A stretch of DNA of 64,000 bases, from positions 1-64,000 of the forward strand of contig NZ_CP117028.1 of NCBI RefSeq assembly GCF_028551275.1, written 5' to 3'. The position numbers were made by a program, and so were the translations under genes. The notes beneath the pieces were generated by a model that was given only the letters and a program-made list of their open reading frames with translations, searched no databases and was not told where the DNA came from. This DNA comes from Sphingomonas hankookensis. Its GTDB lineage: Bacteria > Pseudomonadota > Alphaproteobacteria > Sphingomonadales > Sphingomonadaceae. Of the stretch, positions 1-14,886 are shown one piece after another; positions within the stretch are counted from its first letter, which is position 1, and every line of letters starts with the position of its first letter.

Positions 1-1624
1 AATAGCCCTTGGGCACGAAGCTGTCGTGCGGACCGGCATAGATGTTTTCGATCACCGCATAGCGCTTCGCCGGATCATAGTCGCGCGGCCGCACGACCAG
101 CCCGTGAATGTCGGTCGTGCCGTCGCGCCCCTTCGCCACGAAGCGTTCGGGCGGGCGGTAGCCGGCGGCGGTCAGCGCGCGCACGTCGCCGCGTTCCAGC
201 GTCGCGATCAGCCGGCCGTGATCGGCATCGCGCAGCTCGGCGACCTCGGGCACGTCGGTGCGCGAATGGACGGTGACGAACCGGGTGCCGTCGGGGGAAA
301 AGCGCGCCTCGTGCGTGGCATCGCCTTCGGTCAGGCGGGTCAGGTTGCGCCCGTCGAAATCCACCCGGAACCAGTGTTTGTGATAGGGATCCTCGCCCGG
401 CACCGTGCCGCTCGCTGAAAACCAGATGCGGCGGCGGTCGTCGTCGATGCGGGCGATGTCGCGCACCACCCAGTTCCCGCGCGTGATCTGCCGCTTCACC
501 CGGCCGGTCTTCGCATCGATCAGGTAGAGGTGCCGCCAGCCATCGCGCTCCGATGCCCAGATGAGCTCGGCCCCCGCCCCGCCCACGTCATGCGCGAAGC
601 GGCGTTCGTTATGGATAAAGGTAACCGCATCCTCGCGCACCGCCGCATGGGTCGCGCCGGTCGCGGCGTCGACCGCCACCACCGCGGCATGCTGAAACCC
701 GCGCCGCATATAGTCGAACGCGAAGCTGCGGCCGTCGCGGCGCCATGCGATCGGCCCGAGCTGCCACGGATCGGGGAACAGCGCGGTGTCGACCGTAACC
801 TGTCGCCCGGTCGCCGCGTCGAACACCACCGGGCGTTCCTGGTCGATCGCATCGCCGGGCTTGGGATAGAGTTGCTGCACGAGTTCCGGCTGTACCCGGT
901 CCTTGGGCGACGACACGACGCGGGTCACGATCCGGCGATAGCCCGGCCGGACGCGGTAGAGCGCGATCCATTTGCCGTCGGGCGACCAGGCGATGGTTTC
1001 GGGATCGTAGAAATCGCCGGGGCTGCCGTCGTGGCTACGCCACGCCTCCGCACCGCCACCGATGCCGCGCACGACCAGATTGTCGTCGATCACCAGCGCC
1101 TCGCGCCCGCCGCCGGGTGCCGGGCGCGGCGGGTTGAGCGCGGGCACGGTCAGGTCGCGCACCACGTCGAACCCGCGCGGGCGGCGGTGCGGTTCGTCGA
1201 GCGGGGCACAGACCGGATCGGTCAGCGTGCAGCGCCACGGCGCATAGTCGATGGCGAAGCGGATCGCGCCGCGCCCGTCCTCGAACGCGAATCCGTCGAA
1301 CGGCAGGCGCAGCGGATCGACCGCCTGCCGCCGCGCCGCCGCCAGCGCGCGCGCGATGGCCGCCGCGTCGAAGGCGGGCCGCTTCGCCAGCGTTGTCGCA
1401 TCGACATCGACAAAGGCGAAGCCGCCCGCCACCGTCTTGCGATAATGGAAGTGCCGCCCGTCGCCGTCCCATGTCGCAGGAAAGGCGATGTCGCGGGTCA
1501 GCCATTGCCATTGGTCGCGAAGCGCGATCGAGCGGGCGATGCGCGGATCGTCCTGCGCCCCCGCCGGCACCGCGACCGTCGCCAGCGCCGCCCCGGCCAG
1601 CGATGCCCATATCGATCGCATCAT
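1..1624 (-). CDS. S9B dipeptidyl peptidase IV-like protein (3' part missing)
   Basis: This is the first 541 residues of a secreted prolyl-type serine peptidase. A signal peptide ([22 protein letters not shown]) is followed by the DPP-IV N-terminal beta-propeller, with TolB/WD-like stretches such as [11 protein letters not shown] and EARFSPDGT. The frame leaves the window at [13 protein letters not shown], the first strand of the alpha/beta-hydrolase domain, so the catalytic Ser-Asp-His triad is not visible. The ATG overlaps the stop of the upstream GH2 gene (ATGA), so the two are probably translated together. DPP-IV enzymes release X-Pro dipeptides, and some accept X-Hyp, which fits the hydroxyproline genes upstream. 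The specificity is inferred. Confidence 0.85.
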
Positions 1625-13506: not shown

Positions 13507-14886
13507 ATGATGCGGATGCTGCTTGCCGGAATTGCCATGCTGGGCCCGATCGCCGCACAGGCGCAGGACGCGCCGTCGACGCCGGGGGGCAAGGAAGCGG
13601 TCACGCTGCTGACCGACGGGGTGAAGTTCCAGACCGTCGCCGGGCGCGGGCAGGTGCCGGCCTATGCCGCGTATCTGCAGGCCAAGCTGCTCTCCGCCGG
13701 GTTCGATCCCGCCGAGGTCCGCTTCGTGGCGATGGGGGAGACCGGCTATCTGACCGCGCGCTATCCCGGCCGCGACCGGGCTGCGAAGCCGACCGTGGTG
13801 CTGGCGCATATGGACGTGGTGGAGGCCGATCCGAAGGACTGGACCCGCGACCCGTTCACCCCGGTGATCGAGAATGGCTATGTCTTCGGGCGCGGCAGCC
13901 TGGACAACAAGGCCGGGCTGTCGATGGCGGTCGCGACGCTGATGAAGCTGCGCCGCGCGAAATGGGTGCCGCAGCGCGATATCGTGCTGGTGCTGACCGG
14001 CGACGAAGAAACCACGATGAAGACGACGCGGGCGGCGGCGGAGGCGTACAGGAACGCCGCTCTGGTGCTGAACGCCGATGCCGGTGGCGGGCTGTTGGGC
14101 GATGACGGCAAACCGATGGTGTACGGATTGCAGGCGGCGGAGAAGGTCTATGGCGACTGGCACCTGACCGTCACCGATCCGGGCGGGCACAGCAGCCGTC
14201 CGGGACCGGACAATGCCATCGTCCGCCTGGCGACGGCGGTCGGGCGGATCGCCGCCTATCGCTTTCCCCCGCAACAGAACGAGATCACCAAGGCGTCGCT
14301 GGCCGGCACCGCGACGATGACGCCCGGACCGCTGGGTGCGGCGATGAAGGCGTTCGCCGCCAATCCGAACGACACCGCCGCGGCGGACATATTGTCGGCC
14401 GACAAGCGCTATATCGGGCAGGTCCGCACCACCTGCGTCCCCACCATGTTCAATGGCGGCCATGCGCCCAACGCGCTGCCGCAGCGCGCGGTCGCCAACA
14501 TCAACTGCCGCATCTTTCCGGGTACGCCGCGCGCGCAGATCGCGGCCAAGCTGACCGAACTGGCCGCCGATCCCAAGGTCGCGGTGGCCTTCAACGACAA
14601 TGGCACGATCGAGGCCGGCGCCTCCCCGCTCGACCCGAAGGTCGTCGCGGCGGTGAAGGCGGCGGTGGCCGAGCGGGCGCCGGGGCTGCTGGTCGTGCCG
14701 ATGCAGGAGGCCGGCGCGACCGATTCGATGCATTTCCGCGCTTACGGCATTCCGAGCTTCGGGGTCGGCGGCGTGTTCATGAAGGCGAGCGACAGTTTCG
14801 CCCACGGGCTGAACGAACGGGTGCCGGTCGCGACCTTCGATCCGGGGGTGTTGTGGTGGGAGACGTTGTTGAAGACGTTGGGGTGA
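13507..14886 (+). CDS. secreted M20-family metallopeptidase
   Basis: This 459-residue exported zinc peptidase starts with a signal peptide (MMRMLLAGIAMLGPIAAQAQ). The M20 metal site is visible: VLAHMDVVEADPKDW (His and catalytic Asp), GRGSLDNKAG (bridging Asp), LTGDEETTM (catalytic and ligand Glu) and a late histidine ligand in FAHGLNE. The dimerisation domain lies in the middle (about residues 210-330). AGGGGAAG before ATG 13507 supports the start. It is transcribed divergently from the hydroxyproline operon and shares its regulatory gap. Cleavage of dipeptides released outside the cell is inferred from context. Confidence 0.87.
   Translation: MMRMLLAGIAMLGPIAAQAQDAPSTPGGKEAVTLLTDGVKFQTVAGRGQVPAYAAYLQAKLLSAGFDPAEVRFVAMGETGYLTARYPGRDRAAKPTVVLAHMDVVEADPKDWTRDPFTPVIENGYVFGRGSLDNKAGLSMAVATLMKLRRAKWVPQRDIVLVLTGDEETTMKTTRAAAEAYRNAALVLNADAGGGLLGDDGKPMVYGLQAAEKVYGDWHLTVTDPGGHSSRPGPDNAIVRLATAVGRIAAYRFPPQQNEITKASLAGTATMTPGPLGAAMKAFAANPNDTAAADILSADKRYIGQVRTTCVPTMFNGGHAPNALPQRAVANINCRIFPGTPRAQIAAKLTELAADPKVAVAFNDNGTIEAGASPLDPKVVAAVKAAVAERAPGLLVVPMQEAGATDSMHFRAYGIPSFGVGGVFMKASDSFAHGLNERVPVATFDPGVLWWETLLKTLG

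Follow-up and report, generated by a model that had tools for sequence, protein, structure and literature searches.

The window analyzed here comprises the first 64,000 nucleotides of contig NZ_CP117028.1 of Sphingomonas hankookensis, and it opens with a cluster of hydroxyproline (Hyp) catabolism genes that probably forms part of a plasmid-borne utilization regulon for plant hydroxyproline-rich glycoproteins (HRGPs), uniting deglycosylation, peptide cleavage and Hyp catabolism. This reading draws on gene content, on conserved neighborhood and co-occurrence among relatives, on a short palindrome in front of both halves of the locus and on a predicted protein fold. The contig (C4) is 89,999 bp long and its start coincides with the left edge of the window. 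We take C4 as a circular plasmid because the frame of a DPP-IV-like gene continues unbroken from its end (C4 89356-89999) into the window and because the 600 bp spanning the junction of its end and start are intact in Sphingomonas hankookensis CN3. A single mismatch separates C4 from the CN3 locus (L135) along 16,545 bp.

The genes for degradation of trans-4-hydroxy-L-proline that the initial annotation had recognized are present, all on the minus strand:

12329..13246, minus strand, DapA-like protein (PF00701), predicted Δ1-pyrroline-4-hydroxy-2-carboxylate (Pyr4H2C) deaminase, a role taken from the pathway in the available portion of PMC4113996
11334..12335, minus strand, 4-hydroxyproline 2-epimerase (4HypE; NF010578, 536.7 bits, cut-off 376)
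9888..11303, minus strand, APC amino-acid permease (PF13520), predicted Hyp importer
8659..~9885 (start approximate), minus strand, DadA-like FAD oxidoreductase (DAO; PF01266, NF001933 below cut-off), predicted cis-4-hydroxy-D-proline dehydrogenase
7916..8590, minus strand, GntR/FCD regulator (PF00392 and PF07729)

The epimerase translation contains both catalytic cysteines, within MCGHG and SPCGTG; the second cysteine distinguishes 4HypE from trans-3-hydroxy-L-proline (t3Hyp) dehydratase. It is alone of its kind, as a genome search at E ≤ 0.001 returned just itself. The DadA-like and DapA-like proteins do not reach the cut-offs set for the curated models that they match, and their predicted assignment comes from pathway context. 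The same strand carries a TonB receptor, a GH2 enzyme and a DPP-IV-like peptidase, with an M20 peptidase divergent, as first annotated, the DPP-IV gene being cut by the contig edge:

4785..7733, minus strand, TonB-dependent outer-membrane receptor (PF00593 and PF07715)
1621..4743, minus strand, GH2 protein, LacZ-type β-galactosidase-like, predicted secreted (PF02836 and others; NF052611, 871.9 bits, cut-off of 999 not reached)
1..1624, continuing to C4 89356-89999, minus strand, DPP-IV-like prolyl peptidase, 5′ part in the window (PF00930; PF00326 at C4 89368-89955)
13507..14886, plus strand, M20 peptidase-like protein, secreted, outside the system (PF01546, NF006596)

The DPP-IV start was picked by eye, and signal peptides, from which compartments are assigned, were likewise assessed by eye. 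Neighboring minus-strand genes overlap by at most 7 bp or lie at most 68 bp apart, except for the 182 bp between the GntR and TonB-receptor genes.

Beyond the contig edge, the locus extends to DUF5695 and then to divergent GH127, Ldh_2 and DUF885 genes:

C4 86219-89077 (likely start 86372), plus strand, DUF5695 protein (Pfam PF18951), adjoining DPP-IV
C4 83925-86297, minus strand, GH146-type GH127 protein (Pfam PF07944), divergent from DUF5695
C4 82900-83928, minus strand, Ldh_2 protein
C4 81170-82903, minus strand, DUF885 peptidase-like protein

By sequence, the GH127 protein is a predicted GH146-type β-L-arabinofuranosidase: it is closest to BT0349 (5opj; 463 bits), against 171.5 and 159.7 bits for 8k7x/8k7y and 46 for HypBA1, and it retains the aligned ESC and WCC motifs (Zn/catalytic Glu-Cys and Cys-Cys). 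According to the accessible text of two sources, XeHypBA1, a GH146 enzyme from Xanthomonas, acts chiefly on Araf-β-Hyp (PMC6085000, PMC10850190); the second source describes other GH146 members as active on arabinogalactan protein (AGP) or arabinan. The Ldh_2 protein is nearest to Δ1-piperideine-2-carboxylate reductase (217.5 bits, next 118). Ldh_2/MLD2 superfamily members near proline-racemase-family genes reduce Δ1-pyrroline-2-carboxylate (Pyr2C), according to the portion available of PMC4113996, and no t3Hyp dehydratase was found alongside this Pyr2C-reductase-like Ldh_2.

We searched 298 genomes of the family for the epimerase and obtained matches in 48, strong (E < 1e-100) in 40. Up to 20 kb was inspected around 38 epimerase regions, namely 37 of 39 strong genomes and the window's own; two were left out (G182, on a 3.4-kb contig, and G159, split over contigs), G097 was included despite a 3.3-kb contig that lowers the counts, and G163 and G175 have ~5 kb on one side. 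At ≥40% identity, the epimerase (38 regions) is accompanied by the DHDPS-family deaminase DapA in 37, the DAO-family oxidase DadA in 35, GntR in 34 and the permease in 33, and also by GH127 in 21, Ldh_2 in 17, the TonB receptor and DUF5695 in nine each and DPP-IV in six. Clustering of the neighbors added an M24 aminopeptidase (30 regions, yet not the window's own), DUF885 (23), an aldehyde dehydrogenase (13) and an amidohydrolase (12). The M20 peptidase, initially counted as a member of the system, is linked to the epimerase in one of the 38 regions, its own, and we reject its membership.

Co-occurrence extends across the family. PF07944 matches 39 of the 298 genomes, 31 of them at E < 1e-100, and PF18951 matches 13; a strong epimerase is present in 26 of the 31 strong GH127 carriers (Fisher p ~2e-22, uncorrected for relatedness) and in all 13 DUF5695 carriers (Fisher p ~7e-13, likewise uncorrected). 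The five strong GH127 carriers lacking a strong epimerase are G045, G091, G183, G213 and G227. In 21 of the 26 double carriers, spanning 14 genera, no more than 20 kb separates GH127 from the epimerase (not so in G029, G083, G182, G294 and G297). As a control, GH43, over the cut-off in 112 of the 298 genomes, was nowhere within 20 kb of the epimerase among those of its places listed for epimerase-bearing genomes, which were read by eye. The gene-order comparison in relatives, suggested by the initial annotation as a check, supports a link of the sugar and peptide enzymes and the TonB receptor with Hyp catabolism.

Viewed from DUF5695, the association recurs. A search returned 2039 relatives at E ≤ 1e-10 among 7999 candidates scored, and 80 loci with flanks of up to 10 kb were kept from 184 relatives. 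They contain, at ≥40% identity, GH127 (62), DUF885 (61), Ldh_2 (56), DadA and DapA (30 each), GntR, the TonB receptor and M24 (27 each), DPP-IV (24), the permease (18) and the epimerase (17). In 41 of the 80, at least one gene of Hyp catabolism (DapA, DadA or the epimerase, ≥45% identity) lies within 10 kb, and every one of these loci also has GH127; a further 21 have GH127 without Hyp genes and 18 have neither. S. phyllosphaerae FA2 (L141) and S. endophytica DSM 101535 (L145) repeat the gene order of the window from GntR to DUF885, whereas a second S. endophytica strain (L140) shows just the stretch DUF5695-GH127-Ldh_2-DUF885. Several strains with Leaf names, from which we take a plant origin, also have the window's order, and Caulobacter likewise carries the set (L170, L183, L200). 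The succession DPP-IV-GH2-TonB receptor is conserved in 18 of the 80 loci, in ten of them with the GH2 type of the window and in eight with another GH2. Galactose stripping is the least supported step, because the window's GH2 type occurs in two of the 38 epimerase regions and 13 of the 80 DUF5695 loci (a different GH2 in 11). Deglycosylation as such, which the initial annotation had assigned to the GH2, is retained, with the GH146-type enzyme and DUF5695, both outside the window, as the most conserved sugar enzymes.

The promoters connect the two halves. Palindromes or half-palindromes centered on GTATAC precede dapA, gntR and the TonB-receptor gene, and one lies between GH127 and DUF5695:

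13288..13299, perfect operator-like palindrome ATCGTATACGAT, 41 bp upstream of the dapA-like start
C4 86309-86320, second perfect site ATGGTATACGAT, between GH127 and DUF5695
8605..8616, imperfect copy with two mismatches, upstream of gntR
7781..7798, operator/-10-like element of the TonB-receptor promoter (matrix score 22.3, third best on the plasmid, threshold 26.4)

The 3.95-Mb genome holds exactly two perfect copies of ATSGTATACSAT (C4 13288 and 86309), one per half, and eight further one-mismatch sites; the reversed pattern gives one in all. Across 116 sequences from relatives (3.14 Mb), 33 of 34 perfect sites fall between positions -350 and +30 relative to a panel gene; such zones make up 9.3% of the bases. 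The 30 permuted palindromes yielded 0 or 1 apiece. After collapsing by context, 29 of 30 perfect clusters and 85 of 95 clusters with at most one mismatch are upstream of panel genes; 12 permuted palindromes yielded 0-13 clusters, 0-2 of them in the zones. In relatives, 57 of 81 GH127, 37 of 57 DadA and 32 of 64 DapA genes have such a site, perfect or with one mismatch, in front of them. A matrix built from 53 DapA/DadA sites scored 18 of 81 GH127 promoters over a strict threshold, compared with 0 of 727 control open reading frames (ORFs) and 0 shuffles, and on C4 it gave its three highest scores to the promoters of dapA, of GH127/DUF5695 and of the TonB receptor, of which the third did not reach the threshold. 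An alignment of nine TonB-receptor promoters, that of the window among them, shows TCGTATAATATATTTG to be nearly invariant, one base differing in two of them.

The site persists where the halves are apart. It is present with at most one mismatch in 18 of the 21 GH127 loci without Hyp genes within 10 kb, a set in which L135 is the window's own species, L136, L137, L140 and L146 are close kin, and the flank or contig of L135, L136, L137 and L146 may stop before Hyp genes. L135 was omitted from the motif and matrix counts in relatives and included in the 80 loci and in the comparison of sites with Hyp genes; G112 and L181 are one genome. On the plasmid of Sphingomonas sp. R1, a perfect site stands directly before GH127, and the Hyp genes, at 19.5-22.8 kb, are ~61 kb away round the circle. 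One site is common to both halves across independent genomes, and the FCD/GntR protein is its presumed binder. A generic GntR pattern, TNGTNNNACNA, occurs in none of the promoters inspected.

The predicted model of DUF5695 shares its domain arrangement with the solved PL27 structures 5no8/5nok. We take PL27 (BACCELL_00875, PDB 5no8/5nok) to be L-rhamnose-α-1,4-D-glucuronate lyases acting on gum arabic. Identity is ~15%, a profile comparison gave E 9.6e-5 with no single stretch above threshold, and a single-sequence search with DUF5695 for PL27 returned nothing at E ≤ 1; the predicted model suggests that DUF5695 folds like PL27. Conserved residues of the 901-aa DUF5695 protein include R535, Y539, H541, A684, W688 and D689. 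A viral fold library gave no meaningful match, and neither did PF21307 (GH95 C-terminal), tried as a guess. DUF5695 alone is no proof of a glycan locus, because it sits among housekeeping genes in a Duganella locus (L182) and beside phosphate genes in L151; the four Duganella loci (L182, L187, L202, L204) have no panel genes within 10 kb. In G032 and G175, a second DUF5695 paralogue, ~25% identical, lies ~7 kb or less from the epimerase (L127 13761-16517; L116). Within the open-licence PMC literature searched, DUF5695 appears once, in a domain table of a paper on fungal velvet proteins.

We infer the substrates, step order, compartments, operons, regulator, inducer and last enzyme as follows. 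Short glycopeptides, perhaps from extensin or AGP, would reach the periplasm by way of the TonB receptor in the outer membrane, and a periplasmic GH146-type β-L-arabinofuranosidase, DUF5695 and GH2 would remove the sugars. DPP-IV and DUF885 may then cleave the Pro/Hyp peptides that this leaves exposed. Hyp would be imported by the APC permease, and the epimerase, the DadA-like dehydrogenase and the DapA-like deaminase would yield 2-oxoglutarate semialdehyde, which a chromosomal aldehyde dehydrogenase could convert to 2-oxoglutarate. A single regulator, for which the FCD/GntR protein is the likeliest candidate, would repress the dapA operon and the GH127/DUF5695 units via ATSGTATACSAT, repression being lifted when Hyp or an intermediate appears.

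The final enzyme is probably chromosomal, to judge from sequence relationships. No α-ketoglutarate semialdehyde dehydrogenase (KGSADH) was found on the plasmid, because the sole aldehyde dehydrogenase (ALDH)-family gene found there (46099-47463) is succinate-semialdehyde dehydrogenase (SSADH)-like and was rejected as the missing enzyme. The chromosomal candidate (C1 ~1365639-1367210; best PDB relative 3v4c) is 55% identical to an ALDH from another genome, one of a family that 13 of the 38 regions have at ≤20 kb from the epimerase. A sugar-pathway setting for this candidate was also rejected, its scanned neighbors including Flp-pilus, LytB and GCV_T genes.

Several observations weigh against a single HRGP regulon. 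The two halves are separable, since 17 of the 38 epimerase regions have no GH127 within up to 20 kb (one being the 3.3-kb contig) and since Hyp genes are absent from the 10-kb surroundings of DUF5695 in 39 of the 80 loci. GH2 is variable among relatives. Counted in the 64-kb window by itself, the motif does not exceed chance expectation (4 sites against 2.39); it was first derived from this plasmid's promoters, and the regions searched were chosen around these genes. Just 26 of the 41 DUF5695 loci that have Hyp genes nearby carry the site upstream of GH127, and in relatives it precedes 0 of 13 GH2, 3 of 31 TonB-receptor and 2 of 27 DPP-IV genes. Joint control of these three genes rests on operon structure, because their upstream regions mostly lack the site. 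The presence of GntR and that of the site are unassociated in 36 regions (p = 0.31), and the chromosomal KGSADH candidate has no upstream site at ≤3 mismatches. The products of lyases are usually cleared by GH88/105 enzymes; a lyase role for DUF5695 is left without its next step, because the genome has no GH88/105 match (PF07470).

Two further points on this side belong to the strongest alternative, in which pectin rather than HRGPs is the target: GH127, DUF5695 and GH2 would act on rhamnogalacturonan-I (RG-I)/arabinan side chains, and the Hyp genes would be co-regulated as wall proteins accompany pectin. The nearest solved GH146 enzyme, BT0349, is described as a pectic-arabinan enzyme in the part of PMC10850190 available, and on the Sphingomonas sp. 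R1 plasmid (L215 25876-35859) genes for RG lyase, RG acetylesterase, GH28-related and GH88 proteins come right after GH127/DUF5695; DUF5695 also lies near GH43 and GH88 in L150. We nevertheless consider this reading unlikely, as the palindrome ties GH127 to Hyp catabolism and as the top panel enzymes besides GH127 in the 80 loci (DUF885, Ldh_2, DadA, DapA and M24) belong to amino-acid and peptide families, in a panel that was built from Hyp loci. In addition, GH43, GH88 and GH28 were not seen among the plasmid ORFs scanned, GH43 being chromosomal. That many relatives carry one half without the other would suit a chance or plasmid-shuffled adjacency of a Hyp operon and an unrelated glycan operon; the co-occurrence, the proximity in 14 genera and a site common to the halves even when apart make such an accident very improbable. 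Least likely of all is a locus for free Hyp or collagen/gelatin peptides with the sugar genes as passengers: the Hyp pathway and peptidases would suffice alone, as in the epimerase regions lacking GH127, but the same site precedes GH127, β-L-arabinofuranose is described as a plant sugar (PMC10850190, portion available), and the three DUF5695-bearing plasmid records found in PLSDB are all from plants or the root zone (tomato root zone, Chinese cabbage, Rheum palmatum).

We accordingly favor an HRGP regulon in which the sugar and peptide enzymes and the TonB receptor belong with Hyp catabolism, as neighborhood and palindrome indicate; of the combined role first proposed, this part holds, galactose stripping is its weakest element and the M20 peptidase falls away. 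More tentatively, sphingomonads and Caulobacter may possess a self-contained and sometimes plasmid-borne HRGP regulon, complete in itself, with one Hyp-sensing repressor that controls both glycan removal and Hyp catabolism, DUF5695 being a new PL27-related lyase family that opens arabinogalactan or arabinan on Hyp.

Elsewhere on C4, plasmid functions and other catabolic genes were recorded:

32109..33611, minus strand, RPA-family replication initiator (RepA; PF10134), a plasmid marker
34267-35298, ParB-like protein, beside the replication initiator
35604-36812, ParA, beside the replication initiator

Next to the Hyp locus (window 14941-19772) are a histidine kinase and a response regulator, each found in two of the 38 epimerase regions including the window's own and not conserved with the Hyp locus, followed by a divergent TonB-receptor-like protein with no Pfam match at 1e-5. 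The plasmid also carries a tRNA-Arg (gcg) (window 27223-27315), molybdopterin aldehyde oxidase-like, SSADH-like aldehyde dehydrogenase, peroxidase-family, multicopper oxidase and CopB genes (window 38318-53634), fatty-acid oxidation genes, FadB-like and thiolase (window 58119-61621), and ABC sugar transporter parts with a LacI regulator and a GH130 phosphorylase (C4 66966-75780, L059).

Extensins and AGPs are common at plant surfaces, and the characterized bacterial systems, as far as the sources at hand describe them, handle the sugar. If our reading is true, it would show how plant-associated bacteria could use the HRGP backbone as carbon and nitrogen and would assign a role to DUF5695, a Pfam family without one; the short palindrome is a handle for finding regulon members in other genomes.

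Each component belongs to a known kind. Searches of open-licence PMC turned up no description of their combination under one site or of the function proposed for DUF5695, and no paper was recognized in them that links DUF5695, or GH127/GH146 together with Hyp catabolism, in sphingomonads. Bacteroidetes polysaccharide utilization loci combine a TonB receptor, SusD and glycosidases. The plasmid locus shares their outer-membrane TonB receptor and secreted glycosidases, but has no SusD among the ORFs scanned and includes amino-acid catabolism and a GntR/FCD regulator. For Latescibacteria, HRGP degradation was predicted from single-cell genomes as an enzyme list, with GH127 proposed for extensin and GH2 among the AGP enzymes; the accessible text names no Hyp-catabolic genes, shared operator or DUF5695 (PMC4454575). 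The trans-4-hydroxy-L-proline clusters (4HypE, cis-4-hydroxy-D-proline oxidase, Pyr4H2C deaminase, KGSADH), as partially available in PMC4113996, contain the same enzymes with Ldh_2/MLD2 as neighbors; unlike them, the plasmid locus adds TonB-receptor, glycoside hydrolase and DUF5695 genes and no KGSADH was found in it, and the main text of that paper lacks the terms 'glycos', 'DUF1680', 'TonB' and 'Sphingo'. The HRGP systems of Bifidobacterium longum and Xanthomonas euvesicatoria (HypBA1, HypBA2, HypAA) likewise use a GH127/GH146 β-L-arabinofuranosidase for Hyp-linked sugars, according to the excerpts available (PMC6085000, PMC7263609, PMC10850190); the main text of PMC6085000 lacks the terms 'TonB' and 'epimerase'. 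In comparison, the scan of plasmid ORFs showed no GH43, and GH121 was not searched for. As described in those excerpts, the two systems take the sugar, whereas the plasmid locus adds peptidases and Hyp catabolism with a common site.

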